From Pseudobutyrivibrio sp. MD2005 (GTDB lineage: Bacteria > Bacillota > Clostridia > Lachnospirales > Lachnospiraceae), in NCBI RefSeq assembly GCF_000621865.1, contig NZ_JHXE01000008.1:124001-188000 (forward strand): 64,000 nucleotides of DNA. The letters are read 5' to 3'. Below are positions 14,446 through 64,000 of the stretch, in pieces. The notes under the pieces are model-generated. The model worked only from the letters and a program-made list of their open reading frames with translations. It was not told the DNA's origin and did not search any database. The number at the start of each line of letters is the position of its first letter. Positions within the stretch are counted from its first letter, which is position 1. Position numbers and translations under genes: made by a program.

Positions 14446-14742
14446 TTACATATCCGTTGTATCAACTGACTTTTCCTCCACCTCCATACTATCTGTGTGG
14501 AATGTAGCCTGGCTATCGAATACGCTTTGTTTGTTGTTGATAGCATAAGCATCTGCCATAGCGTGAAATATATCACCATTATCAGCATTGAATGAAACTG
14601 GATTAGGACGTGTCATGAATAGCTCATCCACCTGTTCTCCATCATCATTATTCCACTCTTTCAGCTTATCTCGTTCTTCCTTTGCCTGTTCCTCGTCGGT
14701 GATTAGCTGCAGATAAGCTTCCCAATCTGTTCCTCTAATCAT
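14446..14742 (-). CDS. Small acidic protein at the end of the CIS structural operon
   Basis: 98 residues, strongly acidic, with no domain that I recognise. A helical, charged N-terminal part (DEEQAKEERDKLKEW) is followed by a low-complexity acidic tail. It lies 12 bases after the gpI-like baseplate gene and just before the operon terminator, so it is translated with the baseplate genes. It could be a small baseplate or assembly protein; there is no direct sign of function. Confidence 0.6.
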   Translation of the reverse strand: MIRGTDWEAYLQLITDEEQAKEERDKLKEWNNDDGEQVDELFMTRPNPVSFNADNGDIFHAMADAYAINNKQSVFDSQATFHTDSMEVEEKSVDTTDM

Positions 14743-14754
14743 AAAATACTCCCA

Positions 14755-15828
14755 CTACTGAATTATGATATGTCCATCAAGCCTCTTCTTTTCATCGAGA
14801 CTTCCATTCTTTTCATCGTACATTTGAGCATTCATATCAAGATATGTGTAGCCATCCATTGAAGACTTCTTTTCAAGATATACAATGTTTAAATTGGCTC
14901 TAACTGGAATAAACTGTTTTAGAAGATACATGATTTGCATACGCTTATCTTCTGGCACAAAGTTTTCCACAAACATTATGATATCAAATGGAGAATTACC
15001 ATATATATTTTTATCCGCATCCAGATTATCCATCATAGCCTGCTCAACAATTATAGGCTTCTCTTCAAGGACGATCTCACACAGCTTCTCAAGGGCTGCC
15101 CTAGTACCCTTCATTCTGTTAAGGCTATACAAGCTTTTTACTAGTGTTCTTAGCTGATCGTCACTTAAAAAGCTTCCCTCAACGTTTACTCCCATCCAGC
15201 TGGCAAATACAGGTAAAAGCTCTACTGGCGTGGTGTCTATGTCTAAAAGCTTAGGCGCAGCTTCCAACTGCTCCTGAAAATCATTGTAGATAGTTGAAAA
15301 AATAGATAGGTACTTTTTCAAAAATTCATTGTTCTGCTGATATATTTCCGGCAATGTCTGGAAGAAATTATCTCCTGGTAAAAACATTCGTATTTGCGAT
15401 ATGCTACAGTCTTCCGTACCTAGGATCTCAAGATAAATAAAGCAATAACGTCCCACAACATCAAACAATATGGCATCGCTAGTTGCTATATATGCTTTGT
15501 TTTCTACAGAAATAAACACTTTTGCCTTTTCATTCAACGGAATACTGCTATCTAGTAGAAATTCATTCCAGGTGGTTTGTTCGCTCATGTATTTATTGTC
15601 TGTAGCAAAAACATGCACCTTAAATAATACCTCTTCGCTTTTTTCTATTTTCATAGATAATCGGCCCCAAGGCATTTCTGTATCTCCACTGTCTAGCGCA
15701 GAAAAAAACACACCGTGCTCGTAGCAATCTTTGTCTATTTTGATGGTTTCTCCATCCAGGGTAATTCCATAAATAGCAGCTTTTTCAAGGCGGCTCTTAC
15801 GAAATGAATAATTTCTTAAATAGGCCAT
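14755..15828 (-). CDS. Baseplate/tail protein of the P2 gpI family
   Basis: 357 residues. The central segment (VELLPVFASWMGVN followed by LRTLVKSLYSLNRMKGTRAAL, given here in two parts) is typical of phage P2 gpI-like and eCIS Pvc12/13-region tail proteins, which sit at the edge of the baseplate. The N-terminal 150 residues look like a beta-rich domain and the C-terminal end is short, without the long collagen- or fibre-like region of receptor-binding proteins. It starts two bases after the baseplate J-like gene. No tail fibre gene follows, which matters for the way this machine works. Confidence 0.8.
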   Translation of the reverse strand: MAYLRNYSFRKSRLEKAAIYGITLDGETIKIDKDCYEHGVFFSALDSGDTEMPWGRLSMKIEKSEEVLFKVHVFATDNKYMSEQTTWNEFLLDSSIPLNEKAKVFISVENKAYIATSDAILFDVVGRYCFIYLEILGTEDCSISQIRMFLPGDNFFQTLPEIYQQNNEFLKKYLSIFSTIYNDFQEQLEAAPKLLDIDTTPVELLPVFASWMGVNVEGSFLSDDQLRTLVKSLYSLNRMKGTRAALEKLCEIVLEEKPIIVEQAMMDNLDADKNIYGNSPFDIIMFVENFVPEDKRMQIMYLLKQFIPVRANLNIVYLEKKSSMDGYTYLDMNAQMYDEKNGSLDEKKRLDGHIIIQ

Positions 15829-15830
15829 AT

Positions 15831-20939: not shown

Positions 20940-21365
20940 TTATAACTCCTCTGCCTCATCTTCTATTGCGCTTTCATTGTTTAGATAGAAAGGAAATACA
21001 AAGCTATCCATGAAATCACTATCAACCAGATAGTAATCGATGTTAATAATCAATGCGCCCTCTTTACTATTAGGGTCTACATTAATATCAACATCAGATA
21101 TTCTGGTCTCCTGCTCCAAAATAGTGTTTCTAAGCTCAGATGTAAAAATGTTAAGCATTGTAAGTGAAGTATCCATAAATGTATAACTCATCATCTTGGT
21201 ACCAAAGTTTGGATTCATAATCCTTTCACCCACGGCTGTCATAAGAATCAGATACAAAGATTCCCTGACGCTATCTCTGCCAGAAGATACCACAAATCTG
21301 CCTGTAGCCGGGTCTACCTGTGGTGGAAACTTCATAGACTTGCCTAAATTTGAAAACATATCCAT
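20940..21365 (-). CDS. gp25/GPW-family baseplate wedge protein
   Basis: 141 residues with the gp25 lysozyme-like fold pattern: SLYLILMTAVGERIMNPNFG (the conserved R-x-x-x-P-x-FG block) near residues 36-55. In phage T4, T6SS and eCIS this protein anchors the first sheath ring to the baseplate. Equivalent to Pvc9. It precedes the J-like genes as in other eCIS loci. Confidence 0.92.
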   Translation of the reverse strand: MDMFSNLGKSMKFPPQVDPATGRFVVSSGRDSVRESLYLILMTAVGERIMNPNFGTKMMSYTFMDTSLTMLNIFTSELRNTILEQETRISDVDINVDPNSKEGALIINIDYYLVDSDFMDSFVFPFYLNNESAIEDEAEEL

Positions 21366-21383: not shown

Positions 21384-22196
21384 CTAGCCAAGAGAAATCA
21401 TATTTCCTCCGATTTTCGTAGAGCCTGAGCTGCTCAATTCTACTGTGGAATTGCCCTCTACCTTTACCTTTGCTCCAGATACGCTTACATTCATATCCGA
21501 TTTCATAGTAGCGCCTTCCGATGCCTCTACCAAAAGCTTTTTAGCTTTGAGAGTAACCTTGCCAGTGTCTCCATTCATAATTAGAGATATGTTATCACCT
21601 ACCTGCACTGTGAGATTCTTCGCAGCCTTGATTATCATCTTGCCATTTTCTGTTTTCATAACAATCTGATTTTCTTTTTCTTTATCTGACAGGTACACCT
21701 CTTTCTTTTCGTTATCCATGTGAAATTCAAAGGCGTTTTTAGCTGTCTTCAATGTGATGGCATCCTTTGCGCCATCACCTTTATCATTATCAAAAAACTC
21801 TAGTGTGTTTCCATTTTTGGTAGTTATTTTTTTGTATTTGTTTTTACTGTCCATAGCCTTTGTGTAAAAGCTATCATTGTCCTTTGGAACACATCCGATG
21901 ACATATGGTTTATCGATTATGCCATGGTCAAACACTAGCATTACCTGATCTCCAACTTCTGGCAGGAAATAGGTACCCCACTTTGAGCCAGATGACATCT
22001 GAACCATCTTTGCCCACTTAAGTTCATTAGCTTTCTTGTCTCGCATTGGAATACTGACACACACTTTGCCAGGGTGATCTTTATCATAGTTTTTTACAAC
22101 CAATCCAAGGACTACACCCCAAATGCGATTATCCCCAGTTTCTGTTTTAAGTATCTGCTTGTTTGCAATGTCATCAATTACGTCGTATAAACCCAT
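21384..22196 (-). CDS. Baseplate spike protein (gpV/gp5-like, VgrG C-terminal part)
   Basis: 270 residues. Residues about 22-115 form an OB-fold as in gpV/gp5 and VgrG (GVVLGLVVKNYDKDHPGKVCVSIP, seen in two parts, then WAKMVQ and LPEVGDQVMLVFDHG). From 120 to the end the sequence repeats short polar beta strands ending in a Ser/Gly-rich segment, the usual triple-stranded beta helix of the spike. It sits directly after the gp27-like hub gene, so the split hub plus spike equals one VgrG. No extra effector domain is fused to it. Confidence 0.9.
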   Translation of the reverse strand: MGLYDVIDDIANKQILKTETGDNRIWGVVLGLVVKNYDKDHPGKVCVSIPMRDKKANELKWAKMVQMSSGSKWGTYFLPEVGDQVMLVFDHGIIDKPYVIGCVPKDNDSFYTKAMDSKNKYKKITTKNGNTLEFFDNDKGDGAKDAITLKTAKNAFEFHMDNEKKEVYLSDKEKENQIVMKTENGKMIIKAAKNLTVQVGDNISLIMNGDTGKVTLKAKKLLVEASEGATMKSDMNVSVSGAKVKVEGNSTVELSSSGSTKIGGNMISLG

Positions 22197-22216: not shown

Positions 22217-23350
22217 TTAAGGAATACATGCTGCCTGTCCCACAATATCTGTCAAGTATCCATCTGTCTGATTTAATTTGTGATGGATGCTGTATATATA
22301 AAACTTATTTGTAACTGGAGCTCCCAAATCCTCTAGATTTATAAATGCACCAGGGATTAGATTAGGAATCCCTATAGTTGTTCCTCTAAAGGTTCCAAAT
22401 CTAAAGGATATTGATTCCTTCAAAGACTTCACTCTATTTGTAGCATCGCTATCTGACTTTATGGTTGGATCAATATAAATCTTTTCACTTCCCTTAATCA
22501 GTCCGGCAGCTTTGCTACCTAATGAGATTTTATTTTTAATTTTATCTTTTGCTGAAATCACCTTACCTTTACCATCATCCATTCCTCTGGCTTCGATGGT
22601 TTCTGCAAGGCCGGTGATATCGTATTCTACTTCACAATTGAATAATCCTTTTGTTGCTGAAATGTTAATCTCTTCCGAAGGATCACATTTTGCTGGTCTG
22701 AAATAAACATTTCCACCTACTGTAAAGAATTCATAATTAAACTTTTTTGCCGCCTTTACAACAAATTCATAATCAGACTCAGCCACCATTTCTATATTGG
22801 GATTATTGTTTGGTGTACCTGGCGGTGGAGTGTCCGGCGTATTTGTTATATAAAGCTTTTCAATGATTCCCGAAGATTTCATTTTGCTATAGGCTGTTTT
22901 TTCAAGTATTTCTTTTACTGCTGCAGAATATGTCTTAGCCTTCAACTGCTTGGAATAAGAGCCTGCCATCATGACTCCCTTTATGTCCATACCTGTAACT
23001 GTAATATGTGGAGCTTCTCCTGCTTCATAGGCAAAGGTTACCTTGGTGATAACTCCTGTAAATACTTCCTTTACCAGACTGGCATATCCTAGATATATTT
23101 TTAGTGAAGCACCAATAACTACTGCTTTTGACAAGCTTTCATATTCGAACCTGGCCTGAACCCTATCGAATACGTTATATATTTCAAATGTAGCTATGGA
23201 TGCCTCAAAGCCTGCGGAGATTTCCACATCAATATTATTAATAACAATAGGATTTTTTGATATATCCTTACCGTTAATCTCTATTATTGATCTGGGATCC
23301 GTAAACCCGCCATAATCCTTATATAGATCACCATATATCAGTTTATCCAT
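22217..23350 (-). CDS. Baseplate hub protein (gpD/gp27-like, VgrG N-terminal part)
   Basis: 377 residues, equivalent to Pvc8 and phage late control gene D protein. The pattern of alternating beta strands with VEISAGFEASIATFEIYN, IYLGYASLVKEVFTGVIT and FRFGTFRGTTIGIPNLIPG is typical for the hub trimer that sits at the end of the inner tube. It lies directly upstream of the spike and downstream of the two linker-like genes. Confidence 0.88.
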   Translation of the reverse strand: MDKLIYGDLYKDYGGFTDPRSIIEINGKDISKNPIVINNIDVEISAGFEASIATFEIYNVFDRVQARFEYESLSKAVVIGASLKIYLGYASLVKEVFTGVITKVTFAYEAGEAPHITVTGMDIKGVMMAGSYSKQLKAKTYSAAVKEILEKTAYSKMKSSGIIEKLYITNTPDTPPPGTPNNNPNIEMVAESDYEFVVKAAKKFNYEFFTVGGNVYFRPAKCDPSEEINISATKGLFNCEVEYDITGLAETIEARGMDDGKGKVISAKDKIKNKISLGSKAAGLIKGSEKIYIDPTIKSDSDATNRVKSLKESISFRFGTFRGTTIGIPNLIPGAFINLEDLGAPVTNKFYIYSIHHKLNQTDGYLTDIVGQAACIP

Positions 23351-25134: not shown

Positions 25135-26937
25135 TTAATAACCTCTACGCTTTCTTTCTGTGTCTAGCTTTTTTTCCAGTCTTCTAAACACCTGATTTGA
25201 GATGGAATCTACCTGTCCCTTTATGTTTTTATCAACCATTTCCATCACATTGTTTTGTATATTTCTTACCACTTCTTCATTGTCAATTTGATTTACCACT
25301 TCGGTATGATTGGTTTCTGTGGTATTTACATTTTGGGTCACTTCCACAAGCCTGTTATCTACATAATTTCTTTGCTGCCTGATTTCATCTAAAATATCTT
25401 CAGAAATCGTCTGCTCCTCTGTCTTATGCACTAAAGTAAGTGTGCGCTGCTCCACCTCAATATTTTTTGCAACCTGCTCAACCTGCTTTTTTTGCTCAGT
25501 AATATTTCTAACCACTTCCTGTTGGCGTGAAATATTTTCCAGTTCTGTTATGTCGCCAGGTCGTCCGTTTTCTGCCAAATGTACTAGAAGCTCTCTTGTA
25601 AAAGGATCTGCCACCTGATTGACAATAACTTCTTTGATTTGATCATAAACAGTGTTTTGAATAGTATTGTCAGGTATGCTTCCTATTATCTCTCCAGAAA
25701 GCTCTGGATGCTCCAGCAGAAGCTGGCTGGTATTATATATATTCTTTCTGTCTGGAACTGGATTTGTAATCTGATTATTAATTACAATCTGCTGTTCCAG
25801 CTGTCTTATTTCTTCCAGCTTTTGCTGATTTCTAATATTGATTTCGTTTAATGCTTCCTGCTGCAGATTCTCTACATAATCCGATTTATATACAAGCTCA
25901 TCTGTCTCTTTTATTATGTTTTCTTCAATCTGTCTGCTGTAGTCATTTTCTTCTATTATGTGGAAAACGCTTAAAGTTCTATCTGTAAAAAATCTATTTA
26001 AGGTGTTTTCTGCTGATTGATTGTAAGCATTTTTAAGCTGATACCACTGCTCATCCCTAATGTATTTATCACCTGCTCTAAGGCTCATTACATTTTCAAT
26101 CAAATTCATGATGATTGATGCATTTACTGAAGATAAAATATCTCCGTTTTCTGTTACCTCTACTACATCATCACCTTCATTAAGCTCCTCCCATCTATGA
26201 ACCAGATAGTTTCTGGTATCACCTTCAAATGTATGAAAGATGGAATTAAGCGTTAATTCTCTTGATTCATTTTTCTGTTCTGCCAAATGAAACTCTGCCT
26301 GACGAATTATTGCAGGCATATCTGGGTTTGCCCTAAGCAGCTCAGTTACTTCTTTGTATATTTCTTTACTGTGCAGTCTGTCGAAAACTTTTTCATATAA
26401 TTCTTTTTCTTTTCGACTTGCCAGTACCTCTTTGTCACCCTCGTTCTTCTTTTCTGGAATCCTGCCATTTTCCTGAATAATTCGCTCCATCATGCTTCTA
26501 AATGCAACAGGATTATTTTCATTTATTCTGATATAGTTGATGGTTTCATCCATCTGTTCTTTTATTTCTTTAACCTGCTTTATAAACTGGCTGGTGTTTT
26601 CAACTCCCAGCTTTCTTAATACATTCTCAACATAAACCTTATCCTGATATGTAAAATGATGATTGTCCGAATAATACAGACGATTAATCATTTCATTTAA
26701 CATCTCGATTTTGACATTCTTAGTAGAATTCACATTAGTAGTGTTTGTAAGAGTTGTCATGCCAAAATCTTCAAGATACACCTCTGGTGGCTCGGAAACT
26801 AAATGTATTAATTCTTCCTTTTCCATTCGCACATTCATGCATCCATAATTTGTGCGAATCCTCTCTGAAAAACCGCTGTAGAAAGGTGTCAAAGGTTTCA
26901 ATTTTCTCATTGAATCAGCAGATTTGATTTTAAGCAT
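25135..26937 (-). CDS. 600-residue coiled-coil protein in the CIS operon, possible tape measure
   Basis: I recognise no family. The chain is mainly helical with long Glu/Gln/Asn-rich heptad-like stretches, above all residues about 330-600, and it ends in a basic RRLEKKLDTERKRRGY tail. The N-terminal 70 residues are different, with MLKIKSADSMRKLKP. It lies between the second tube-like gene and the hub linkers. No other obvious tape measure (Pvc14-like) is present in the operon, and the length and helical character would suit this role, which is inference only. Alternatively it could be a scaffold or tip-bound protein. Confidence 0.6.
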   Translation of the reverse strand: MLKIKSADSMRKLKPLTPFYSGFSERIRTNYGCMNVRMEKEELIHLVSEPPEVYLEDFGMTTLTNTTNVNSTKNVKIEMLNEMINRLYYSDNHHFTYQDKVYVENVLRKLGVENTSQFIKQVKEIKEQMDETINYIRINENNPVAFRSMMERIIQENGRIPEKKNEGDKEVLASRKEKELYEKVFDRLHSKEIYKEVTELLRANPDMPAIIRQAEFHLAEQKNESRELTLNSIFHTFEGDTRNYLVHRWEELNEGDDVVEVTENGDILSSVNASIIMNLIENVMSLRAGDKYIRDEQWYQLKNAYNQSAENTLNRFFTDRTLSVFHIIEENDYSRQIEENIIKETDELVYKSDYVENLQQEALNEINIRNQQKLEEIRQLEQQIVINNQITNPVPDRKNIYNTSQLLLEHPELSGEIIGSIPDNTIQNTVYDQIKEVIVNQVADPFTRELLVHLAENGRPGDITELENISRQQEVVRNITEQKKQVEQVAKNIEVEQRTLTLVHKTEEQTISEDILDEIRQQRNYVDNRLVEVTQNVNTTETNHTEVVNQIDNEEVVRNIQNNVMEMVDKNIKGQVDSISNQVFRRLEKKLDTERKRRGY

Positions 26938-50181: not shown

Positions 50182-50862
50182 CTAACTATCGCCTTGTGCC
50201 ACCGGTAATATAATCCTTACCGAAAACCCTTTTCCCACGTCAGATATAACACTAATATTGCCGCCATGATCCTTTACTATCTGATATACAAAATACATTC
50301 CCATGCCATGTCCATTTTCCCCCTTATGAATAGCACTTCGGTATCCGCTTTCAAATACATGGTCAACCTCAGCTTCAGGCATTCCCTTTCCATCATCCTT
50401 ATAAACTATCAGGATTGAGTCTTTGCCGGCTTCGCTTACCATAACATTTATGTTGCCGGTCCTTCCCATGTACTTAAGTGAGTTTTCAAAGAGATTGTAA
50501 AATAATCTTATAAACTGCCATCTGTCAGCCTGTATTATCACTTTCTCACTTTGACTAATCACATTTACTTTGATTCCACTTCTGTCAGTAAAATCTTTCA
50601 TATACTGTGATACTTCCTTCACCACATCTAGAATGTCCACCACTTCGAATTTGTACTCAAGCAGCGATGAATCATTATCGATTACAAGCTTTAGGATATT
50701 GGAAAGATATTTAATATTGCCACAAATCTTAGTCACAACCTCTTTTTGTTTTTCATCATCCAGCTTTCCTTCCTCCAACAATTCTCCGTAACCTTGAATA
50801 ATTGAAAGAGGCATTCTTACATTGTGGGAAAGCAAGCTTCGCATCCATTTTACGTCATCCAT
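50182..50862 (-). CDS. Soluble sensor histidine kinase inside the cargo operon
   Basis: 226 residues, only the kinase core. The H box is SHNVRMPLSIIQGYGELL near residue 13-30 with the phosphoacceptor His present; N box NLFENSLKY near 125, G1 DDGKGMPEAE, and G2 NGHGMGMYFV, all intact. No sensor domain and no membrane span, so the signal must come from a partner. There is no response regulator gene beside it; the OmpR-type regulator at 61446 is the nearest candidate. Placed between two cargo genes, 15 bases before the B-type copy 2. Confidence 0.88.
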   Translation of the reverse strand: MDDVKWMRSLLSHNVRMPLSIIQGYGELLEEGKLDDEKQKEVVTKICGNIKYLSNILKLVIDNDSSLLEYKFEVVDILDVVKEVSQYMKDFTDRSGIKVNVISQSEKVIIQADRWQFIRLFYNLFENSLKYMGRTGNINVMVSEAGKDSILIVYKDDGKGMPEAEVDHVFESGYRSAIHKGENGHGMGMYFVYQIVKDHGGNISVISDVGKGFSVRIILPVAQGDS

Positions 50863-50917
50863 ATCTTCTCCCTTTTTATCTGGTTATCCATCTACTTACA
50901 TCCATACTGCCGAAATG

Positions 50918-52318
50918 TTAGTTTGGAACAAGTCCTCTATTATTATCAAAAGAATCAATATCTTGTTTTTTTATATTTACATATCTATTGATATATGAAC
51001 TTGTATTGTAGTATGGGCCAAAAATCATTTCTGGTAAGCTAATCTTCCTATTTTGCTTACTGTTAATAAATGCATCCAAACCATATTTAACATTTTTTGT
51101 TTTTGATGAAATAGGCCCCTCAAATAGTATAGAATAATGCATTGCCCATTCCTTTGGTGTATATGGACGGACCAATGTGAATGGTGAATGAGTCTTTCCT
51201 TTTATAAATTTATTTATACCCTTTCCTATCAACCAAGGAACAAGCTGGATTGCAAATACCCCTGTATTAACAACATTTTGAACTGTGCCAAGTGTGTATG
51301 CAGCAACAGTTGGTGCTATTCCAGCCCATGAACCTTTTGATGAATATGACTTTAATTCTTCATTGGCTGCATCCCTTAATTTTGATATAGCACGTTTCCT
51401 TACTCTTCCTTTTCTTGAAAATTTAATTTTGCCAATGCCTATATAGCTATCACATGCCTCTACTAATCGCTTAAGATTAACTGCTGTATTATCAGCATCT
51501 GAATAATACTCTCTATTCATAATTGAATCAGCATCTGCTCCTGAAAATTCAACACTACCATACTCAGTGAGTTCCCCAGCAGCTCTATTACGGAGAGCTT
51601 CTTTTCTTGATTGGCCGGTAAATTTACTCTTTAAACGTTTATACAGGGAAGCCTGCTTTACATTAAGCTTTCCACTTCGATAATCAGCCAAAGCCGTCTT
51701 AACAGCAATCATATTATCTGAATCATCTACACAAACCTCGCCAAATAGAGCTTCATTGTTAAGAAGGTCAGCACCCTCCACTTGTTCTATTCTGTCAATC
51801 TCATTATCTATTTCCTTTTTGTCCATCCACTTCATGAATTCTTTTTCTTTCTTGGATATGGTGTAGGTTTTAGCTTCTCCTTTTTTCTTATCTTGATGCT
51901 TAGCTAATGATTCATATTTAACGTGACTTGTTTTTACTTTTGACTTAAAGAAATCTGATGAGTGTTTATATTCCTCCTGATATATAGGAACCTGCACGTT
52001 TAATCTGTTACGATGAAAATCTTTAAGCAATTTCCATTTTTCATCGTCCAAATCACTATCTTTATACTTGTCTTTTTCAATAATGTCTTGGATTGTTCTA
52101 TAGTCTTTATCGCTAAGATTTAAATGGGCAGGCACTTCCTGCTGAAACATATTGCTAGTAAACATTTGCTTACTTGACGTTTGATTGCTTGACTTTTGCC
52201 TGGTATCCATTATTGGATTATCAAATACACTGTCTTGTGGCTCCTCTTGCTCTTCAAGATCGGTCTGGATAATGTTCTCATCTTTATAAAGATTCTTATT
52301 AAGATATATATCACTCAT
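50918..52318 (-). CDS. A-type putative cargo protein (copy 1) with hydrophobic segment
   Basis: 466 residues. Starts MSDIYLNKNL, then a disordered polar part up to about residue 70. Shared with the 45549 and 12546 proteins: DDSDNMIAVKTALADYR and ACDSYIGIGKIKFSRKGRVR (in the kinase-like protein DACISYVGN). Residues about 335-375 are hydrophobic (TVAAYTLGTVQNVVN, VFAIQLVPWLIGKGI). The C-terminal 80 residues are aromatic-rich and polar. No signal peptide. AGGAGAGG before the start. Probably a cargo that inserts into or crosses a membrane; inference from shared layout only. Confidence 0.55.
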   Translation of the reverse strand: MSDIYLNKNLYKDENIIQTDLEEQEEPQDSVFDNPIMDTRQKSSNQTSSKQMFTSNMFQQEVPAHLNLSDKDYRTIQDIIEKDKYKDSDLDDEKWKLLKDFHRNRLNVQVPIYQEEYKHSSDFFKSKVKTSHVKYESLAKHQDKKKGEAKTYTISKKEKEFMKWMDKKEIDNEIDRIEQVEGADLLNNEALFGEVCVDDSDNMIAVKTALADYRSGKLNVKQASLYKRLKSKFTGQSRKEALRNRAAGELTEYGSVEFSGADADSIMNREYYSDADNTAVNLKRLVEACDSYIGIGKIKFSRKGRVRKRAISKLRDAANEELKSYSSKGSWAGIAPTVAAYTLGTVQNVVNTGVFAIQLVPWLIGKGINKFIKGKTHSPFTLVRPYTPKEWAMHYSILFEGPISSKTKNVKYGLDAFINSKQNRKISLPEMIFGPYYNTSSYINRYVNIKKQDIDSFDNNRGLVPN

Positions 52319-52332
52319 ATTTCCTCTCCTAA

Positions 52333-53733
52333 CTACTCCTGAAGGACAAGTTCCTGGAATAATCCATCTAACAACTCTCTATCGTCTGGTTCCAGATAAT
52401 CTACATAATTGCCTTTTACAACCACTTCTTCTTTCAATAAATCATACATTTCTTCTGTAAACGCATCATTTCTAGTGTTGGTGTAATTTAATACTCGCGC
52501 TAAACCACGTTTGCTGAACAACTTATCTGTTAAGTTGGCTATTGTTTCATTACGCACCTCGTACTTTACAGGTATGCTATCAGTATATTTTCTGATTGCC
52601 TTATCAATTGCGTTCTTTGCCAACAATAAAAGGGCTGGTGAAATTGTATTATCTGTACACTGTCCAATTTCTAGTTCTATTTCTTGAGCTCCGTTCTTAT
52701 GTACAAACAAAGCCGAAACATTATTTTTTTGTTTGATAACGCCCGACAACTCTGGGTCATAATATTCTCTTCCTACATGGTATTTATAATAATCGTTGCC
52801 ATCGTCATTTTTTTCCTCCAGCTCTCCCATTATGTCTGTATATTCATCGTCACTTAGTTCAGACAATGGAGTAATTTTGGAGGTATCTACATTTATTAAT
52901 TTTATGTATTCAGATTCTGCTATTTCCTTAAGGGTTACTGAAACTTTCGTACTATATGTTAAATCTGAGAAGAATCCCCAGCGCTGCATAAAATAATTGA
53001 ACGCTTCAATATTTTCTGACATTGGGCTTATCTGGCAATTTACATAGTCTGCCTTTGCATTGTTTACCTCTGCAAAAAACATTGCCATCAACTCATCTCC
53101 AACACCTTTGTGCTCATATTTCTTGCGAACATTCAGCCATAATAGATCTGCACATATTTTTTCGATGCTGTCATCTAAGTATTCTTTAAATAGGATTACA
53201 CCAGCTGGATGGGACTCACCATTTTCTCTTCGAATAGCTCCAAAAGCGAAATATTCCGGCAAGCCTACTTTGTCATGGAATTCTGCGGGGATTAATGGGC
53301 CAAAGGCATCTAAGTCATCCTTATCCAATAACAAAACATCCTTTAGCTCCATCTCATAATCCATAAAGTACTCTAGACGCTCGGCGCCCACTGCACTCAT
53401 TGGATTAACAAGCTTTATAAAATAGTAAAGGGCAGCAAAAACTTCGTAATAGTAAGGTGTAAGCTCTTCAATGACTTTATAGTCATCTTTGTTTGCTATT
53501 CCATCCTCTAAAATTCTGTCTAAATCTACACCTCTTGCTTTTATTTCATCCTGTATTCTGTAAAGTGTGTCTTGGCTTTTCATTATCAAATCTCTGAGCC
53601 AATCATCATTTACAGCAGCCCCTACAGGATCGTCAATACTCAAATAAGATATAAATGCAGCCATTTCTTTACTGCTTCGCATCTTATCTATTTCTTGTTC
53701 AAGCTCTGCCCCTACATTTATAGAGTTCCCCAT
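52333..53733 (-). CDS. Helical-GNAT fusion protein
   Basis: 466 residues. Residues 1-140 are helical and match the separate small protein at 45126. From about 150 comes a GNAT domain with RKKYEHKGVGDELMAMFF, in which the acetyl-CoA loop (H-K-G-V-G) is intact, then a second GNAT-like half to the end. So this protein equals the split pair 45126 + 44126. It lies between a B-type (53755) and an A-type (50918) cargo gene. Could acetylate cargo or a target protein, or act as adaptor. Confidence 0.7.
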   Translation of the reverse strand: MGNSINVGAELEQEIDKMRSSKEMAAFISYLSIDDPVGAAVNDDWLRDLIMKSQDTLYRIQDEIKARGVDLDRILEDGIANKDDYKVIEELTPYYYEVFAALYYFIKLVNPMSAVGAERLEYFMDYEMELKDVLLLDKDDLDAFGPLIPAEFHDKVGLPEYFAFGAIRRENGESHPAGVILFKEYLDDSIEKICADLLWLNVRKKYEHKGVGDELMAMFFAEVNNAKADYVNCQISPMSENIEAFNYFMQRWGFFSDLTYSTKVSVTLKEIAESEYIKLINVDTSKITPLSELSDDEYTDIMGELEEKNDDGNDYYKYHVGREYYDPELSGVIKQKNNVSALFVHKNGAQEIELEIGQCTDNTISPALLLLAKNAIDKAIRKYTDSIPVKYEVRNETIANLTDKLFSKRGLARVLNYTNTRNDAFTEEMYDLLKEEVVVKGNYVDYLEPDDRELLDGLFQELVLQE

Positions 53734-53754
53734 ACTAATCCCCTTCTGCTAATT

Positions 53755-56664
53755 TTATTTTTTCTTTTCAGCAAAAGTATAATCACTGTTATACCCATTC
53801 TCATTTAAATAATCATAAAGCTTATTTATGTTTTCTTGATTAAATGCAATATCTTCACAGTACTCTTGATAGTCATCGATTCCAATTTTTTCTAAGCCTA
53901 AATTGGCCTCTATCATTTTCTGAATAAGCCTTGATTGGGCATTCTTCTCTAAGGCTTTCCTAAGGTGGAGTCTCTCAGCCGTTGGCTTGTTACTAATCTT
54001 TGACTCTGCTGGATAGCCTTTTATTCCCTTGTCATAATCATCTTTATAGGATTTATAACTTTGGAATTCCTTTTTTAAATATTTTGCCAATATTTCATTT
54101 AATTCATCTTTTTCGTCTTTGTCTAGCTCTTCTGGCTGATGCCATAGCATTCTAAACAGATTTGCCTTTCTCATGTTATCAGTGAACGCTTCCTGATTTA
54201 GGATTTTATATGCCTCCTTTACATTTCCTTGAGCGTCGTACTTGACTTGCTTTGGATCTATAACATTCTTTGCAAATATATGCTTTATTGCCATATATAG
54301 CTCTGGTCCAAGTCCTTCTTTTACCTCTTGTGGTAGCACATCATCTGCTTTCATATCTTCTGTTATAACTCTGGTTATCTTAATCATATCAGGGGTTACA
54401 TTTTCTGCACCTTTCTCGTACAGCCCCTGTAGTAAATATGTTACCTCTGCAGATTGTTTTATGTTTTGGTATTCACATTCTAAATCTGGCATAAATGTGC
54501 CTTTGTATTTCTCATGCATATTAGCTTCTGATTTCAAGGCTACTATTCTCAATCTAACCAGTTCTAAGTATGTCTGCATATGCTTTGGAAGCTTTCCTTT
54601 TTCGTCTGTGTAGTCCTTCCTGATGGTCTCCGAAATTCTTGTTAATGCATCTATCCCTAGTTTAAATATTTCAGGAATAGAGTCCTTACCAAGTGGGATG
54701 TTATAATACAATTCATTCTCTATCATGAACATGTATGGTTCCCATTGTTTCAGAATGATTTTTGCCATCTTTCCGTTTACGGTTACATTTTCAATTACTT
54801 CCTGCGTTTTTCCCTCAAGCAATTTGTTTTCAACAATAAAGTCATACTGTTCTACCATTCTTTTTACAATGTAATAACTATTGAGTTGCGAAGTATCAAT
54901 TCTTGGTGATAAGAAATCTTCTGTTTTTTGAGGCTTAAGACTATAAAAACTATTTATGTCACGCTTCACCAACAGATCTGGACATATCTCTTTGTTTTTC
55001 TTTAAGTTTTCCGAATAATTCTTTTGATCCTCCTCATTATATGAAGACTCCTTCCATTCTTTTATTTCTTCAGCCATAGTCTTTATATCAATTACTCTTA
55101 CATTATGAGAGTATTCGTCCATCACATTGCTATAAGCAACATTTTGTCCATAAGCCCCTTTATAATGTGCCTCATAGAAATCTTTTCTAATTCTTAACTC
55201 TGTCAGATTTCTATCAATTTTTTCAGTTGCTATTGTGTCGTTAATCAAAAATGTTTCTTCAGCATTAAAGGTTCTGCTACCATCAACCATTGAGATAATG
55301 GTAAGCTCATATGCTCTGTATTGGTCTTCTCTTTGAGTAAACAAATTCTGTAATTTTGCCAGATTATATTCTGCTGCATTCTTACGTAAAGCAGTGTCTA
55401 AAGAATTATCATCCTCCATATTCATAATCTTTTCATATGCCAACATTTGTGTCTCTAATCCCTGTAGGATTTCAGCATATCTACTGGCTTTACCTGTTAT
55501 TCGTCTTAAAAGTTCTTTGTTTGTATCATATACAACTGGATTGTTAGCTATCTTTTTTATTAAAGCGTCATGTCTCTTTTGCATCTTAGAGTCATAATTT
55601 TTTTCCAGCTCCACTTTGAAAGGCAACATGTCTTTATATACTCCAATAGCATCCGCCTGTTTCTCATTAAGTTTACTTACGGTGCTACTAACCAGGTCAT
55701 TTCTAGCCTGTGCTCTCTCTGCTGCAGTCTTTTCTACATTATCTACAATGGTTGAAGTAGTCATTGTTTTCCAATCAATTTTTAATCCGTTCTGCTGTAA
55801 ATGACTTGTTATGAAATCCTCTAATATTTTTCCCCTTTCAAAAATCATTTTCTGTATCACAGCTTCCTGGTGTGCATAATGATCCTCGTTTGCATCATAA
55901 ATAGTTCTAAATGCTTTAAACTTACAAGCCGTTTCTACCAAGCTTGTTATATTTGCTGCAAGATATTCATCCGTAAACATATTTGCAGTCATTTCAAAAT
56001 TGATAAGGTCCGTGCAAATCTTGTTTAAGAATATTTCCTTTTGATTTGGTCTATATAAATAATCAGCAATTATTTTACTGTTATTCTCCGTCTGTTTGCC
56101 CTTATCCTTTTTACTAACTTCAGATCTGTCTACAAAATACTTAAGGGCATCTACCTCTACAGTATTTTTAGTTGGTACATTCATGCTTTTGGTAAGGTTC
56201 AAATATTCTGTGTTAAATGTATCGTGGGTGTTTTTATATGCCTTTAATTTATCGCTTTCTCTTACGGTTACTGCAGTAGCATTTACATTTTTAAAACTAC
56301 GCTTGAATACACGATATTTCTCTTTTACTTTGCCAAAGCCTAATTTTGATGCAGCTGCTCTCTGTTCAGGAGTACCTGTAACTTTTTGCTTTATTTTTTT
56401 AGGAATAGGCAAAACTTGAGCCTGAAGTTGTCTTTGAAACATTGCATTAAGCTCTGCATCATCCTTATGAGCTTCCAGATAATCCATTCTACGGCTATAT
56501 CCATCTTTTATCTCCTGCTGAGCAAGTTTCTGAGACGCGTACTCATTATCATAAATAGATTTGTCATACCTGTTATCTTCTAGGTCTTGCACTATTTGTT
56601 GGCCTTCAAGCATTGCAGGATTATCTCTTGAAATCACTTTTGGAAGTTGGTAGAAATCGCCCAT
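53755..56664 (-). CDS. B-type putative cargo protein (copy 1), very large helical protein
   Basis: About 969 residues, helical and charged, without signal peptide, membrane span or known enzymatic motif. Starts MGDFYQLPKVISRDNPAM. Residues about 90-130 are basic (RVFKRSFKNVNATAV). INFEMTANMFTDEYLAANIT near 225 resembles the repeated block of the 47735 protein. ATG at 56664 has AGGAGG eight bases upstream; the longer frame to 56685 lacks such a site. It is the largest protein of the cargo operon and follows a GNAT gene. Function unknown; cargo role inferred from context. Confidence 0.55.
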   Translation of the reverse strand: MGDFYQLPKVISRDNPAMLEGQQIVQDLEDNRYDKSIYDNEYASQKLAQQEIKDGYSRRMDYLEAHKDDAELNAMFQRQLQAQVLPIPKKIKQKVTGTPEQRAAASKLGFGKVKEKYRVFKRSFKNVNATAVTVRESDKLKAYKNTHDTFNTEYLNLTKSMNVPTKNTVEVDALKYFVDRSEVSKKDKGKQTENNSKIIADYLYRPNQKEIFLNKICTDLINFEMTANMFTDEYLAANITSLVETACKFKAFRTIYDANEDHYAHQEAVIQKMIFERGKILEDFITSHLQQNGLKIDWKTMTTSTIVDNVEKTAAERAQARNDLVSSTVSKLNEKQADAIGVYKDMLPFKVELEKNYDSKMQKRHDALIKKIANNPVVYDTNKELLRRITGKASRYAEILQGLETQMLAYEKIMNMEDDNSLDTALRKNAAEYNLAKLQNLFTQREDQYRAYELTIISMVDGSRTFNAEETFLINDTIATEKIDRNLTELRIRKDFYEAHYKGAYGQNVAYSNVMDEYSHNVRVIDIKTMAEEIKEWKESSYNEEDQKNYSENLKKNKEICPDLLVKRDINSFYSLKPQKTEDFLSPRIDTSQLNSYYIVKRMVEQYDFIVENKLLEGKTQEVIENVTVNGKMAKIILKQWEPYMFMIENELYYNIPLGKDSIPEIFKLGIDALTRISETIRKDYTDEKGKLPKHMQTYLELVRLRIVALKSEANMHEKYKGTFMPDLECEYQNIKQSAEVTYLLQGLYEKGAENVTPDMIKITRVITEDMKADDVLPQEVKEGLGPELYMAIKHIFAKNVIDPKQVKYDAQGNVKEAYKILNQEAFTDNMRKANLFRMLWHQPEELDKDEKDELNEILAKYLKKEFQSYKSYKDDYDKGIKGYPAESKISNKPTAERLHLRKALEKNAQSRLIQKMIEANLGLEKIGIDDYQEYCEDIAFNQENINKLYDYLNENGYNSDYTFAEKKK

Positions 56665-56681
56665 ATGAGCACCTCCTATAA

Positions 56682-57503
56682 TCAACCGTAATAACTATTG
56701 CTCACTTCTATTGCGTCGGGAATAAAATACTTTACTAAAGCCTCCACACCCTCGCTGACAGCATTTATGTGTAATATCTGGTTTTCATCACATTTCTCTT
56801 TTAATACATAACTAGCCTCATATAGCAGATAACTAATAATTGTATTTGATGCTCCCGTTGAATAGAGCGTACTTAGCTCTAGCACATCCCCATTCTCCAT
56901 AAAGACTATGTATGCAATAGGCTTATCCTTTTTTACGACAACAAAGCTCAAATCTTTTCTTATCGCTGGATTTAAAAAACCGCCTTCCGGCATCATTCTT
57001 TCTTCATTTGCAGCTTCATCATTTTGCATACTCTCAAGGAAATCTTTTCCTAGTTCTTCAAAAGAAACTACTTTATCACTTTTTTTATTAGTTTTTTCTG
57101 CTGGTGCTATGCTTGATATTTTTACTGAATAGCTTTTTATCTCTTGATTTTTCTCTCGCAAAAAACCTTGAGCATTTAAAAAGCCACATAATTCTTCATT
57201 AACATCAGGCTCGCCTTCCCATGCGACATGTATTGAAATAGCCATGGTATCCAGTATTTCTTTCAATGTGCGAATAAGCTTTTTCGCTCCGCCTTTTCGT
57301 CTTGAAGCAGGTTCCACATATAGCCAGTAAACCCTGTAAACTCCACCAATTATTTCCCCTATAAGACAACCAACTATTTCATCACCATCGATCAGAGCTA
57401 ATGCACTTATATTCTCATCTCTATAAAATGCATTAAGCTCCTCTTCAGGAGCTAATCCATGCAATAATTCAGTTTCTTCTTTTTCGACCCTACATACAAT
57501 CAT
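56682..57503 (-). CDS. GNAT-fold protein, first gene of the cargo operon
   Basis: 273 residues. First GNAT unit about 1-135 with VYWLYVEPASRRKGGAKKLI, the R-R-K-G-G-A acetyl-CoA loop intact, and FLNAQGF; second degenerate unit about 165-273. GGGAGGCC lies right before the ATG. It opens the cargo operon behind the shared CTTTA promoter block. Might be an active protein acetyltransferase, in contrast to the copies at 44126 and 46875. Confidence 0.72.
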   Translation of the reverse strand: MIVCRVEKEETELLHGLAPEEELNAFYRDENISALALIDGDEIVGCLIGEIIGGVYRVYWLYVEPASRRKGGAKKLIRTLKEILDTMAISIHVAWEGEPDVNEELCGFLNAQGFLREKNQEIKSYSVKISSIAPAEKTNKKSDKVVSFEELGKDFLESMQNDEAANEERMMPEGGFLNPAIRKDLSFVVVKKDKPIAYIVFMENGDVLELSTLYSTGASNTIISYLLYEASYVLKEKCDENQILHINAVSEGVEALVKYFIPDAIEVSNSYYG

Positions 57504-57639: not shown

Positions 57640-59991
57640 TTAAAGTCCAACTAAATCAGCATACGGTTCAAAGTCAGCCTTGGTAAATACCTTGCCGACC
57701 TTAACAAACTCGTATTTAACAGCATTTAAATAATGCTGCATATGTACTTCGCCTCCTGCATTTGGATCTGCCGCTGCAAGGAAGGCCGCATTTAAAATGC
57801 AGTTTTTGATATTACCACCAACAAGCTCATATTTCTCGGCCAGGAATCTGATATCAACATCCTTGGCAAGTGGTGTTGTTTTTGGAATTGTTGTTCTCCA
57901 AAGCATTTCTCTTGTATCTACATCAGGGAACTGGAACTCAACAATATATTTCATACGTCTAAAGAAAGCTGGGTCAATGTTGTGCTTGTAGTTTGTGGCT
58001 AGCACAGATACACCATCGTATGCTTCAACCTCCTGCAACAGCAACGCTGTCTTATTGTTGTTTGAAGACTGATTGGAGCCACCGTCATCGCTTCGTTTTG
58101 CAAACAAGGTATCGCACTCATCGAAGAACAAAACTACGTTACACTTCTTGGCCTCTCTAAAAATCATTGAGATAGACTTTTCAGTTTCACCTACGTATTT
58201 ATCAATTACCTTGGACAAATCTACTCGATATAGTTCCAGATTCAATTCATGAGCAATAACCTGAGCACACATTGATTTACCAGTACCAGGAGCACCAAAT
58301 AATAGAACCGAAAGACCACGACCATATGGATACTTCTTGGTATAGTTCCAATCATCATAAATCTGCTTTCTAAAATTCATTTGGTCGATGGCATGCTGCA
58401 ATGTTTCTCTCTGGGTTGGATTCATAACGATATCCTCAAATCCAAAGTTTGCCTTAACCTTGGTAGCCTTTTGCGTAAGCTCAGAGCTCATCTGATTGTA
58501 GCAGCCTCTAAATAATGTATCTCTTGGGATATCAATATTTTTATCCATAGTAGCAAGGGCTCTTGCGTTTTTAAGAGCATCTTTTATCTTGCCGGCTGTA
58601 AACAAAAACTTTATTGCCATTTCTGGAAGTTCCACATCCTTACCTAAGGTGTAATCCTTTGCAAAGAATTTCCAGCATTCCTCACGCTCGCCAGTAGTTG
58701 GTGTTGGAAGCTCCAGCTCTGTGAATTCTTCCTTTGTGATTTCCTTCATTGGAAGCTTTTCCTTGCTCATAGCAAAGCACAGGATATCCTTTTCAATAAG
58801 CTTTCCTAATGCCAAATCCATATATCCAAAGAATTTTTCTTTTTCCTCTTCTCTAAAGGTAAGCTCTGTAAGGCAACAGCAAGAGCCTGTTAAGATGCAT
58901 TCTCTTGTTACTGCCCAAAGAGCATGCTCAACATATCTAAAGTCATAACTAAAGAGCTTTTTACAATTGATGGTTATGGCTTTTAACCCATTCTTTTCGC
59001 AGAATTTCTTAACAAAGAAGCGTCGTCCGCTGCCCTCATCACCATAATAATGAAAGACTCTAACACCTTCGCTATATGAAATTTCCATAGCATCAAGCAC
59101 ACCTTCATTTGCCATTATTGGGTCAAGCACCTCACCCTTTTTGGTTAGCAATTTGAAGAATCTACTATAATCAGCATCAAGCTTGTCGTCTTCGCTTCCA
59201 AACAAAAAATCAATTAATCTTTTATCTGGGCTGACAGCTGTAGAAAAAGGCATGGCCGGATTAACACTCAAAGACATTATTGGCTGTAGCTGCTCTAAGC
59301 AATGACTCATGTCATCATAAAACTTCGCAACCTGGTAATCGCTACCGTAATATATTTTTGCTGCCGATTCTATTGTTGGAACTGGCAATCCACTATTTTG
59401 ATTAATAACTTGGAAAATCGTAGCATACTCTGTCTGAAGAGATGACAGAATGCCTGCTGTAAAACAGAACACAGCGAAATTAGTGTAGTTTAACTTTTCA
59501 GTAATATTTAAAAATGGCAGAATAATTCCTTGTTCTCTGGTCAGTTTACCTCTGTCCATGACATAAGAAATCATTTCCGCTATACCCATGTCGATTGTTT
59601 CATAGGTCGGCTCATCATTAGTTTCTTCTTCATCTGAGGTATTGAACGAGCTAAGTATATCCAGCAAATCTGTTGGAATATCCTCGTCAAATTCATTATC
59701 TTCCTCATCTTCAAAATTATCTAATCCATATTTATCATCTTCTTTTTGACTCTCTGTTTCTGAATTAGATTTGAAAAACTCATCGAAGCGCTTTTTGTTT
59801 TTGATTTCAGCAGTCTCCAAGTCCGGGTACATAACATTTCTATATCCACCCCTGTCTGAAGCATAATCCTTCTGCATCACTTTTATCTGTTCCTTTATTC
59901 TCACATCAACGCAAGAAAAAAGGTAACGCATAAATTCATCGTAACTTTCAAAAGGCTTCTCTCTATCATCTAAGTTGAATTTTTGTACCAT
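57640..59991 (-). CDS. AAA+ ATPase of the eCIS core set (Pvc15-like)
   Basis: 783 residues. An acidic N-terminal part up to about 130, then a degenerate AAA unit with HYYGDEGSGRRFFVKKF near 310-325 (Walker A lacking the Lys-Ser/Thr pair), and an intact AAA+ module: Walker A LLFGAPGTGKSM near 560, Walker B VVLFFDECDTLFAKRS near 620 and ATNYKHNIDPAFFRRMK with the arginine finger. Such an ATPase belongs to all eCIS loci and is thought to help assemble particles or load cargo. It is transcribed with the regulators, not with the particle. Confidence 0.92.
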   Translation of the reverse strand: MVQKFNLDDREKPFESYDEFMRYLFSCVDVRIKEQIKVMQKDYASDRGGYRNVMYPDLETAEIKNKKRFDEFFKSNSETESQKEDDKYGLDNFEDEEDNEFDEDIPTDLLDILSSFNTSDEEETNDEPTYETIDMGIAEMISYVMDRGKLTREQGIILPFLNITEKLNYTNFAVFCFTAGILSSLQTEYATIFQVINQNSGLPVPTIESAAKIYYGSDYQVAKFYDDMSHCLEQLQPIMSLSVNPAMPFSTAVSPDKRLIDFLFGSEDDKLDADYSRFFKLLTKKGEVLDPIMANEGVLDAMEISYSEGVRVFHYYGDEGSGRRFFVKKFCEKNGLKAITINCKKLFSYDFRYVEHALWAVTRECILTGSCCCLTELTFREEEKEKFFGYMDLALGKLIEKDILCFAMSKEKLPMKEITKEEFTELELPTPTTGEREECWKFFAKDYTLGKDVELPEMAIKFLFTAGKIKDALKNARALATMDKNIDIPRDTLFRGCYNQMSSELTQKATKVKANFGFEDIVMNPTQRETLQHAIDQMNFRKQIYDDWNYTKKYPYGRGLSVLLFGAPGTGKSMCAQVIAHELNLELYRVDLSKVIDKYVGETEKSISMIFREAKKCNVVLFFDECDTLFAKRSDDGGSNQSSNNNKTALLLQEVEAYDGVSVLATNYKHNIDPAFFRRMKYIVEFQFPDVDTREMLWRTTIPKTTPLAKDVDIRFLAEKYELVGGNIKNCILNAAFLAAADPNAGGEVHMQHYLNAVKYEFVKVGKVFTKADFEPYADLVGL

Positions 59992-62144: not shown

Positions 62145-62158
62145 ACTCCCATACCTTT

Positions 62159-62458
62159 TTATTCAATCTCCAGTATCTTGATAAAGCCTGTCATCTCTAA
62201 GATACTTAATACTGTGGGCGACACATTGCGTAGCACCATATTTCCCTGCTTTGATTGAGCTGTTTTCTGTCCCATTAACAATGCTCGCAATCCTGCACTG
62301 GAAATGTAATTCAGTCCTTCGCAATCCAAGACAAGATGGCTCATCTTTTGCAAAGATAATAGTATTGCATCCTGGAGCTGTGGCGTTGTCAGACTGTCTA
62401 CCTTGCCTTCAATTTCAAGTATTATTTTGTCCTCTTCAATTTTCTCATTAATAGTCAT
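62159..62458 (-). CDS. STAS-domain anti-sigma-factor antagonist
   Basis: About 99 residues, SpoIIAA/RsbV type. LVLDCEGLNYISSAGLRALL carries the phosphorylated Ser in the S-S-A-G-L motif. The ATG at 62458 has AAGGAG eight bases upstream and is preferred to one seven codons before. It follows the SpoIIE-type phosphatase gene, which would dephosphorylate it. No separate RsbW-type kinase gene is seen in the window. Confidence 0.92.
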   Translation of the reverse strand: MTINEKIEEDKIILEIEGKVDSLTTPQLQDAILLSLQKMSHLVLDCEGLNYISSAGLRALLMGQKTAQSKQGNMVLRNVSPTVLSILEMTGFIKILEIE

Positions 62459-62485
62459 ATATCTCCTTCTTTCCGCCAATTTGAC

Positions 62486-64000
62486 TTAATTACTAGGACC
62501 ATTGTATTGCACGCATAGCTGTGTAATATCATCAAACTGTGTTGCATCACCAACAAACTTTTCTATTTCTTCGGTAACTGCTTCTAGTGTGTCTTTTGGA
62601 TTATTATATTCTTCTTTATTTAATACCTCTAAAAGATTATCCATTCCAAAGAATACTTCTTCCTCGTTTGCAGCCTCGGTAACACCATCTGTGTACTGAT
62701 AAATGAAATCTCCTGGCTCCAATTTGAATGTGTAATCTTCGTATGTACTCTCCTCCATAATTCCCAGAGGCAAGTTGTGCTTATCCTTATAATACTCGTA
62801 TTTACCGTTCTTTCTTTTGATTACAGGATACTCGTGCCCTGCATTTGTTGCAATTACATCACCTGTATTTAAATCAAGAATTGCAAGCCAAACAGTAACA
62901 AACATGTCTGCGTCATTTTTTATGCACAACTGCTGATTAACAAATGAAAGTATTTTTGCAGGGCTTTGACTACCACTTAGCATGGATCTATTCTTAATCA
63001 ATATTTTGGAAACCATCATAAACATGGCCCCTGGAATGCTCTTTCCTGACACATCTGCCGTAACAAGGGCTAGATGATTTTCATCTATTAAGAAGAAATC
63101 GTAAAAATCTCCACCTACTTCCTTTGCCGGGTGCATGGATGCGTATATATCAAAATCGGTTCTATCTGGAAATGCTGGGAAATTATTTGGCAGCGCTGAT
63201 TCCTGAATTCTTGTGGCTATTCCAAGCTCTGTTCCAAGTCTCTCTTTATCAGCGGTAACTTCCTTTACCTCTTCGATGTAGCCTTCCATCCTGCTGATCA
63301 GTGCCTGGAAGCTCTCTGCCAGCTTTCTAGTCTCATCTCCTACTGTTTCATTCCATTCGAAGGTAAGGTTGTCCCCCTCTATTGCTGAAACCTTTTCTGA
63401 AAGCAGTATAATTGGACCAACTATTTCATCTGCCATAAATACTGCTATAAATATTGACACTATAATCAGCAATCCGCCGATTATTCCAAGCATCAAAATC
63501 AGCTTTTTGAAAATCTTATCAATATTCTGTTCTGTAGCAAGTGATTCCTCAGACATTTTTTCTAGCAAGCTATTTGTAGATGCAAAAACTTCTTCCTTAG
63601 GAAGCATTACTACAAGTGCCCACTGTACAGCATCTATAGGTGCATAGGCTCCGCAGTATTCCATACCATCTAATGTGAAATAACCTACTCCATTTGCCCC
63701 ACCCATACCGTCGCGAACAATCTGGTTTAGTTCTTTATTGTTAGTTTCTCTCCAATCAGTGTTTGCGTTTTCTTCAGACACTTCAAATGAACCTGATTCA
63801 ACTGATGAGTAAACAAGCTGACCTTCGCTATTAACAATTATTACAATGCCGCCTTCTCCAACATCCGTTGTTTCAACAAGCTGGCTTAACTCGTCTAAGT
63901 ATATTCCAGCGCAGGCAACACCTTTCAATTCATCACCCTTGTAAACCGGTGTTCCACACATAACAGCGATTCTATCGCCATTTGCCTCTCGTACAATGTT
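62486..64000 (-). CDS. SpoIIE-family (PP2C) phosphatase with Cache and HAMP regions, N-terminus cut
   Basis: The frame is open to the right edge, so the N-terminus is missing. Visible: the second half of an extracellular Cache-type sensor domain, a membrane span (LILMLGIIGGLLIIVSIFIA), a HAMP linker with coiled coil, and a PP2C/SpoIIE domain with the metal motifs EVGGDFYDF, LVTADVSGKSIPGAMF, TNAGHEYP and YTDGVTEA. It removes phosphate from the STAS protein in reply to an outside ligand. First visible gene of the unit that also holds the response regulator and the AAA+ ATPase. Confidence 0.93.
   Translation of the reverse strand, partial: NIVREANGDRIAVMCGTPVYKGDELKGVACAGIYLDELSQLVETTDVGEGGIVIIVNSEGQLVYSSVESGSFEVSEENANTDWRETNNKELNQIVRDGMGGANGVGYFTLDGMEYCGAYAPIDAVQWALVVMLPKEEVFASTNSLLEKMSEESLATEQNIDKIFKKLILMLGIIGGLLIIVSIFIAVFMADEIVGPIILLSEKVSAIEGDNLTFEWNETVGDETRKLAESFQALISRMEGYIEEVKEVTADKERLGTELGIATRIQESALPNNFPAFPDRTDFDIYASMHPAKEVGGDFYDFFLIDENHLALVTADVSGKSIPGAMFMMVSKILIKNRSMLSGSQSPAKILSFVNQQLCIKNDADMFVTVWLAILDLNTGDVIATNAGHEYPVIKRKNGKYEYYKDKHNLPLGIMEESTYEDYTFKLEPGDFIYQYTDGVTEAANEEEVFFGMDNLLEVLNKEEYNNPKDTLEAVTEEIEKFVGDATQFDDITQLCVQYNGPSN

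Follow-up and report, generated by a model that had tools for sequence, protein, structure and literature searches.

Does the contractile injection system encoded by Pseudobutyrivibrio sp. MD2005, a Gram-positive member of the Lachnospiraceae, leave the cell as a free particle or act from a fixed position in the envelope of its producer? The question is raised by a gene cluster in a 64,000-nucleotide stretch of the genome (contig NZ_JHXE01000008.1, positions 124,001 to 188,000; hereafter the window), which belongs to an assembly of 3.09 Mb in 26 contigs (G000 in our genome set). Sheath, tube, CIS_tube, spike, gp25, J, Pvc16_N cap and AAA+ genes were found by Pfam and NCBIfam searches in this single cluster (Table 1), as is typical of the lineage of extracellular contractile injection systems (eCIS), and no capsid family was matched among the proteins scanned. 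The initial annotation had already listed these core particle genes, and the searches bear it out, with the second J-like protein (995 aa) and the hub scoring under whole-protein cut-offs. The cluster extends past the limits it gave (14446 to 62486) to a second AAA+ gene, relatives of which adjoin particle genes in other loci. We favour, with moderate confidence, a contractile injector of eCIS descent acting in the manner of a type VI secretion system (T6SS) in a cell with one membrane, docked on a membrane module through an adaptor protein of 597 aa.

The protein at the fibre position

The initial annotation proposed an anchored machine partly on the grounds that no fibre gene could be seen. 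This argument fails, because a fibre-slot protein of 597 aa is encoded just outside the membrane genes it described, and residues 9-147 of this protein match CIS13_fam (NF053767; 1.7e-26; 93 bits, the cut-off being 370). Anchoring is argued for instead because the fibre-slot protein is constant and tied to the membrane genes. The below-cut-off CIS13_fam match and the presence of a Tail_P2_I gene may correspond to the eBAP3-type mount of Bacillota, in which a shoulder-like N-terminal domain accompanies a Tail_P2_I locus, and the Tail_P2_I protein is proposed as the mount of the 597-aa protein by analogy with PMC12923769. Similar N-terminal domains begin a protein downstream of baseplate and phage-tail genes in a Nostoc contractile injection system (CIS) and a collagen-like protein downstream of baseplate genes in Cereibacter. 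The closest relatives of the protein, at 87-90% identity, are from Pseudobutyrivibrio assemblies, rumen or gut samples account for many of the other loci, and phage records gave no match.

Conservation along the protein was read from two alignments. In 11 divergent rows from sheath-bearing genomes, chosen without regard to the C-terminus, mean identity was 57% for residues 1-60, 44% for 61-145, 11-22% for 146-385 and 31-45% for 386-597. The corresponding values in 69 closer rows were 77 and 64% for the N-terminal segments, 25-48% for the middle and 63-73% for the C-terminal part, the last of which may be inflated because these rows were fetched partly by a C-terminal peptide pattern. In both sets residues 386-597 exceed the middle in identity, so that the variable receptor-binding C-terminus of a fibre was not found; with a constant C-terminal part the protein is unlike a target-seeking fibre, the tip of which is expected to vary most. 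The C-terminal part may also follow the membrane genes. Relatives in genomes G335 and G246 match in the N-terminal part only, and no 275-aa, MORN or TolC-like gene of the module described below was seen there within the 40 kb fetched. The relative in G356, a genome of a different family that has the 275-aa and MORN genes, aligns through residue 597; alignment ends at residue 498 in G296, and the G232 relative is truncated by a contig end. A link between the C-terminus and the presence of the 275-aa gene is suggestive on these comparisons. No transmembrane span was read in the 597-aa protein by hydropathy; around residues 40-70 there is some hydrophobicity, in a stretch that is modelled as strands and that passed the threshold, with values up to 1.86, in 38 of 79 relatives.

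The membrane module and the company it keeps

Five genes at 32639-41199, noted in the initial annotation as encoding proteins with membrane spans or a signal peptide, do so in each case by our reading of hydrophobic spans and signal-like N-termini. Next to the fibre-slot gene lies that of a 275-aa protein with one C-terminal span; K/R residues are more numerous before this span than after it in all 75 relatives, of which one is truncated. For the 608-aa, 864-aa and TolC-like proteins the charge rule likewise favours an inside N-terminus, in 88%. Profile comparison of the 275-aa protein with the PDB hints, and only hints, at a protein-kinase-like N-terminal domain: kinases, mostly AKT and PAK, made up 43 of 45 rows with a first profile (best E 0.027), and a larger profile returned two rows, one of them a kinase at E 0.13. 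Identity with EssB/YukC of type VII secretion was considered and rejected, as hhalign returned a probability of 0.7% when four aligned YukC relatives were used, and this in the membrane part only. For the 608-aa family, 25 relatives gave only weak single-member matches in Pfam and no family was assigned; motifs in its soluble part had given the impression of a nucleotidyl cyclase, which gained no support, with no cyclase family in the 25 members and one weak, unrelated PDB row. The 864-aa family was also left without assignment, 19 relatives having matched only Cu_amine_oxidN1, in 3 cases (best 0.00086).

A further product, a 699-aa exported protein, has the two-repeat, long-helix fold of TolC and the outer membrane factors over residues 39-470, and PDB profiles align to both TolC repeats. 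In a one-chain model 17 residues separate the helices at 54-85 and 103-175, and the strands at 322-335 have at most 6 residues. Curated sequence cut-offs were not reached (TIGR01844, 27.3 of 225 bits; PF02321, 21.2 of 22 bits), and profile comparison gave only a weak internal repeat (4% probability). No Omp85 was found in the genome, and the producer seems to lack an outer membrane. Nine other loci carry TolC-like proteins of 1019-1322 aa (L077, L080, L087, L095, L100, L108, L115, L131 and L134); in eight of them a shortened 864-aa-type gene comes next, some cut by the end of the locus, and a shift of domains between the neighbouring genes is possible. Two 864-aa-family genes stand side by side in L166-L167 (G371).

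Genome-wide counts of the sheath, 275-aa and TolC-like families were made in 150 genomes of the family, and TolC-like matches were also counted in 249 genomes of the phylum. Within the family the sheath was present in 16 genomes, the 275-aa family in 14 and the TolC-like family in 8, and all 14 and all 8 lie within the 16 (Fisher tests against the sheath, 6.7e-18 and 2.4e-9, uncorrected for ancestry). The check suggested with the initial annotation, that the membrane genes be followed across eCIS loci, lends it circumstantial support through these two families. Sheath-positive genomes with no 275-aa match were G006, which is 67% complete and has contig ends inside the locus, and G046. The 275-aa gene shares a contig with the sheath in 12 of the 14, and these 12 also have the 597-aa and MORN genes; in the other two (G054 and G076) it is on a different contig and the sheath contig ends near the sheath. 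Leaving G046 aside, all 12 sheath-positive family genomes with an uncut locus have the 597-aa, 275-aa and MORN genes together. Across the phylum, full-length TolC-like matches occurred in two genomes, both with the particle, and four further matches were partial (open frames of 378-404 residues).

Neighbours were counted in the best 80 of at least 512 loci picked with the 597-aa alignment, wherever the contig reached far enough. The 275-aa gene was present in 76 of 76 eligible loci, MORN in 63 of 63, TolC-like in 60 of 60, 608-aa in 65 of 66 and 864-aa in 47 of 51. These figures include a six-frame recheck which recovered, in the same order, 2, 3, 1, 1 and 0 of 2, 3, 1, 2 and 4 first-pass misses, some of which were artefacts of choosing the longest overlapping open reading frame. 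Gene order was identical in all 45 loci in which the first five genes are complete. The gaps there have medians of 6, 17, 23 and -4 bases, and correlation of pairwise distances gave r 0.60-0.93. In a sheath tree of 23 rows (L081 omitted by choice, G335 and G246 by a length filter), the 13 TolC-like-bearing rows fall on one side of a branch with 100/100 support, three unlabelled rows not being counted; the root rests on the long Haloferax branch and is unsure. The simplest reading is that the 597-aa, 275-aa and MORN genes form an older core, which the TolC-fold and 864-aa proteins joined once.

These distributions bear on two other explanations. A released eCIS would use the 597-aa protein as a normal fibre whose target is a conserved surface, with the membrane genes serving particle assembly, sensing or exit. 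Its N-terminal domain is indeed of a fibre-type mount, and PMC12923769 counts eBAP3 proteins as fibres; we nonetheless judge this rather unlikely, given a C-terminal part without tip-like diversification, 275-aa and TolC-like families that are found only with the particle and adjoin the fibre-slot gene, and the lack of any holin or lysin match among the 40 window proteins scanned, although lysis genes may lie elsewhere in the genome. That the TolC-fold and 864-aa proteins are instead a separate export device sharing the operon would suit their confinement to one group of the sheath tree and their absence from other loci that have the 275-aa and MORN genes. It would fit poorly with the full-length TolC-like matches, since every genome with one (8 of 150 and 2 of 249) also has the particle, and we regard it as highly improbable.

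Proposed docking on the membrane and firing from within

In the docked arrangement that we prefer, the 597-aa N-terminal domain would plug into the Tail_P2_I baseplate in the fashion of an eCIS fibre, and the constant C-terminal part would bind the cytoplasmic domain of the 275-aa protein in place of a foreign receptor. The 275-aa, MORN, 608-aa, 864-aa and TolC-fold proteins would form a complex spanning the membrane into the cell wall, on which the baseplate would assemble, and contraction of the sheath within the living cell would drive tube, spike and cargo outward to presumed targets. Precedents come from several systems: in the T6SS the adaptor TssK links the baseplate to TssL and TssM (PMC6300606), fibre proteins of the eBAP3 type in Bacillota resemble this adaptor (PMC12923769), and a haloarchaeal CIS whose Cis11 is nearest to Bacillota is membrane-anchored (PMC11566945). 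Envelope fixation as suggested in the initial annotation keeps circumstantial support from the sheath-only co-occurrence, the single gene order and the TolC fold, and loses its missing-fibre argument.

Several observations weigh against docking. The C-terminus of the 597-aa protein is less constant than its N-terminus (44-57%) in the divergent rows, and the 69-row set was partly picked by its C-terminal pattern. No TssK was among the best 50 matches of either structural search with the 597-aa model, which is of moderate quality (predicted local distance difference test score, 69). The charge rule is indecisive for the MORN protein (62% of 61), and the distance correlations have no control gene. 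The TolC-like and 864-aa genes were not detected in several distant loci that do have the 275-aa and MORN genes, and some of these loci lack a 608-aa gene as well; in G296 the MORN gene is on the other strand and the search for a 275-aa gene found none. G046 carries a sheath only: neither a module gene nor any further particle gene was recognised in the 80 kb fetched, and its unlabelled row stands inside the TolC-bearing group of the tree yet the genome has no TolC-like gene. The sheath gene of this genome (loci L044-L046 and L171) stands near SpoIIE-type genes. Finally, the bore of a TolC-size trimer is narrower than a contractile tube, so that the TolC-fold protein cannot simply be the channel of the needle.

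Membrane proteins might also let the particle, in a stressed cell, strike the membrane of the cell that made it and so cause cell death. Such self-targeting has a precedent in Streptomyces, whose cytoplasmic CIS requires the membrane protein CisA, encoded at the usual fibre position (PMC12237407), and a SpoIIE-type phosphatase and a putative STAS-like protein, read by eye, adjoin the present locus. An exported TolC-fold protein and other presumed external parts exceed what self-puncture would seem to need, and for several cargo-like genes the other loci examined contain no relative; we consider self-targeting improbable here.

Other genes of the cluster and kinship with known systems

Coordinates of the features are collected in Table 1.

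Table 1. Genes of the injector cluster and its surroundings, by position in the window
Feature	Coordinates	Strand	Evidence or remark
Second AAA+ ATPase with winged-helix domain	10358..12529	+	PF00004 4.5e-29, PF22977 1e-13
Tail_P2_I baseplate protein	14755..15828	-	PF09684 8.6e-9
Baseplate J-like protein (Baseplate_J)	15831-17933	-	PF04865 2.5e-8
Baseplate J-like protein, 995 aa	17946-20933	-	TIGR02243 1.7e-23, under whole-protein cut-off
gp25 wedge	20940..21365	-	PF04965 7.7e-18
Spike (Phage_base_V)	21384..22196	-	PF04717 4.7e-18
Hub	22217..23350	-	NF033848 2.5e-10, under whole-protein cut-off
CIS_tube proteins (two)	23364-24200, 24224-25132	-	PF19266 1.4e-18 and 4e-13
600-aa protein, ends conserved, middle variable	25135..26937	-	comparison with relatives
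Second tube-like protein	26941..27906	-	alignment to relatives' tube genes and position; no Pfam match
Inner tube (gp19)	28577..29092	-	PF06841 1.2e-32
Contractile sheath	29119..30819	-	PF04984 2.6e-18, PF17482 7.4e-16
PAAR-like spike tip (DUF4280)	30846..31238	-	PF14107 1.2e-25
Cap/terminator (Pvc16_N, DUF4255-type)	32036..32617	-	PF14065 8.6e-22
864-aa protein, N-terminal span (residues 37-55), large part presumed external	32639..35233	-	hydropathy
699-aa exported protein of TolC fold, no long barrel strands in the model, C-terminal beta domains	35230..37329	-	signal-like start
406-aa membrane protein with MORN repeats	37310..38530	-	PF02493 2.8e-10; span near residue 65
608-aa protein, several spans and soluble C-terminal domain	38534..40360	-	hydropathy
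275-aa membrane protein, one C-terminal span, IGTE-type conserved tail, N-terminal domain presumed cytoplasmic	40372..41199	-	
597-aa fibre-slot protein, CIS13-family N-terminal baseplate-attachment domain and constant C-terminal part	41206..42999	-	
Cargo-like genes interleaved with GNAT-type proteins	43492..57503	-	
AAA+ ATPase	57640..59991	-	PF00004 1.9e-27

The 600-aa protein, whose matching proteins measure 530-1137 aa apart from one of 167 aa, may be a tape measure that sets sheath length. Relatives of the second tube-like protein range from 144 to 613 aa, with a C-terminal extension of variable length in several, and resemble an evolved tube with cargo. Large cargo-like proteins of 976, 810, 466 and 433 aa alternate with the GNAT-type proteins and possibly form cargo-partner pairs with them; other loci have GNAT relatives too (17-30 open reading frames matched each, counting duplicates and the window's own), and the 976-, 810- and 466-aa proteins matched only themselves in the loci examined. 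On the forward strand, a 632-aa protein (12498-14396) is a candidate cargo, segments of which are common to proteins of 1084-1251 aa upstream of the fibre-slot gene in L059, L087 and G041. The protein at 62159-62479, STAS-like by eye with no family search made, adjoins the SpoIIE phosphatase and a kinase, and its relatives come after the Tail_P2_I gene in G080, G041, G129 and G104; partner-switch control is possible. A tetrahydrofolate riboswitch at 6660-6758 (91.1 bits) is not part of the injector.

The view that known eCIS are released, on which the initial annotation had leaned, is too narrow, as the haloarchaeal T6SS (PMC11566945), the thylakoid CIS (PMC8894136) and the Streptomyces CIS (PMC12237407) are anchored or cytoplasmic. 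An anchored mode is thus already known for the lineage from the first two of these. The T6SS of Halogeometricum borinquense is likewise of eCIS lineage, with a particle anchored at the cytoplasmic membrane, and as described in PMC11566945 it has a single putative six-span anchor gene (Hbor_38620), whereas the module here consists of several genes, those of the MORN and TolC-fold proteins among them. The related CIS of Haloferax larsenii, for which anchoring is not shown, has a protein with an N-terminal domain of the 597-aa type, and a hydropathy scan of 15 genes in that stretch gave no six-span protein. In the thylakoid-anchored Anabaena CIS (PMC8894136) a fibre-like protein shares in anchoring; its crown protein Cis19 (All3314) has weak N-terminal similarity to the 597-aa protein, and its Cis13 has a putative transmembrane helix of the kind that was not read here. 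The Streptomyces system, also of a Gram-positive host with a membrane protein tied to the locus, differs by its description in PMC12237407 in relying on one protein, CisA, and in having cytoplasmic particles and leading to cell death. Canonical T6SS would share the proposed logic, in which a fibre-derived adaptor attaches the baseplate to a complex in the membrane (PMC6300606); the present cell has one membrane, and neither TssJLM, TssK nor any other T6SS-specific Pfam family was found at E 0.01 in the 40 window proteins, the rest of the genome not having been searched. Four named plasmid records, too, contained no TssK. The 699-aa protein, for all its shared fold, differs from TolC and the outer membrane factors in that no outer membrane is expected here, in its apparently reduced barrel strands and in its scores below curated cut-offs.

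In the open-licence PMC literature no title among the matches listed describes a module like this one, and 'contractile injection system' and 'Lachnospiraceae' coincide once, the former in a reference list alone; subscription papers and preprints are outside this scope. A 2026 fibre catalogue excluded clusters without identifiable fibres (PMC12923769), and according to PMC11566945 every T6SS described before the haloarchaeal one was from Gram-negative bacteria. There is a real chance that the cluster represents a Gram-positive T6SS. We see about an even chance that a T6SS-like system evolved from an eCIS in Lachnospiraceae, its fibre having become a TssK-like adaptor. The trans-envelope complex would then be new and of no kinship to TssJLM, with a kinase-like membrane protein and a MORN protein at its centre, joined there in one clade by a TolC-fold protein that had lost its barrel. 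The idea may be open to experiment, as three titles among the best 80 loci carry no metagenome-assembled genome or uncultured label (L079, L129 and L135), and two of these, Butyrivibrio sp. AE3009 (L129) and Lachnospiraceae AD3010 (L135), read like cultured strains. If the docked reading is true, the TolC fold can be used by a cell without an outer membrane, and the anchored mode would have arisen from eCIS-type machines once more, in common Gram-positive bacteria of the rumen and gut.

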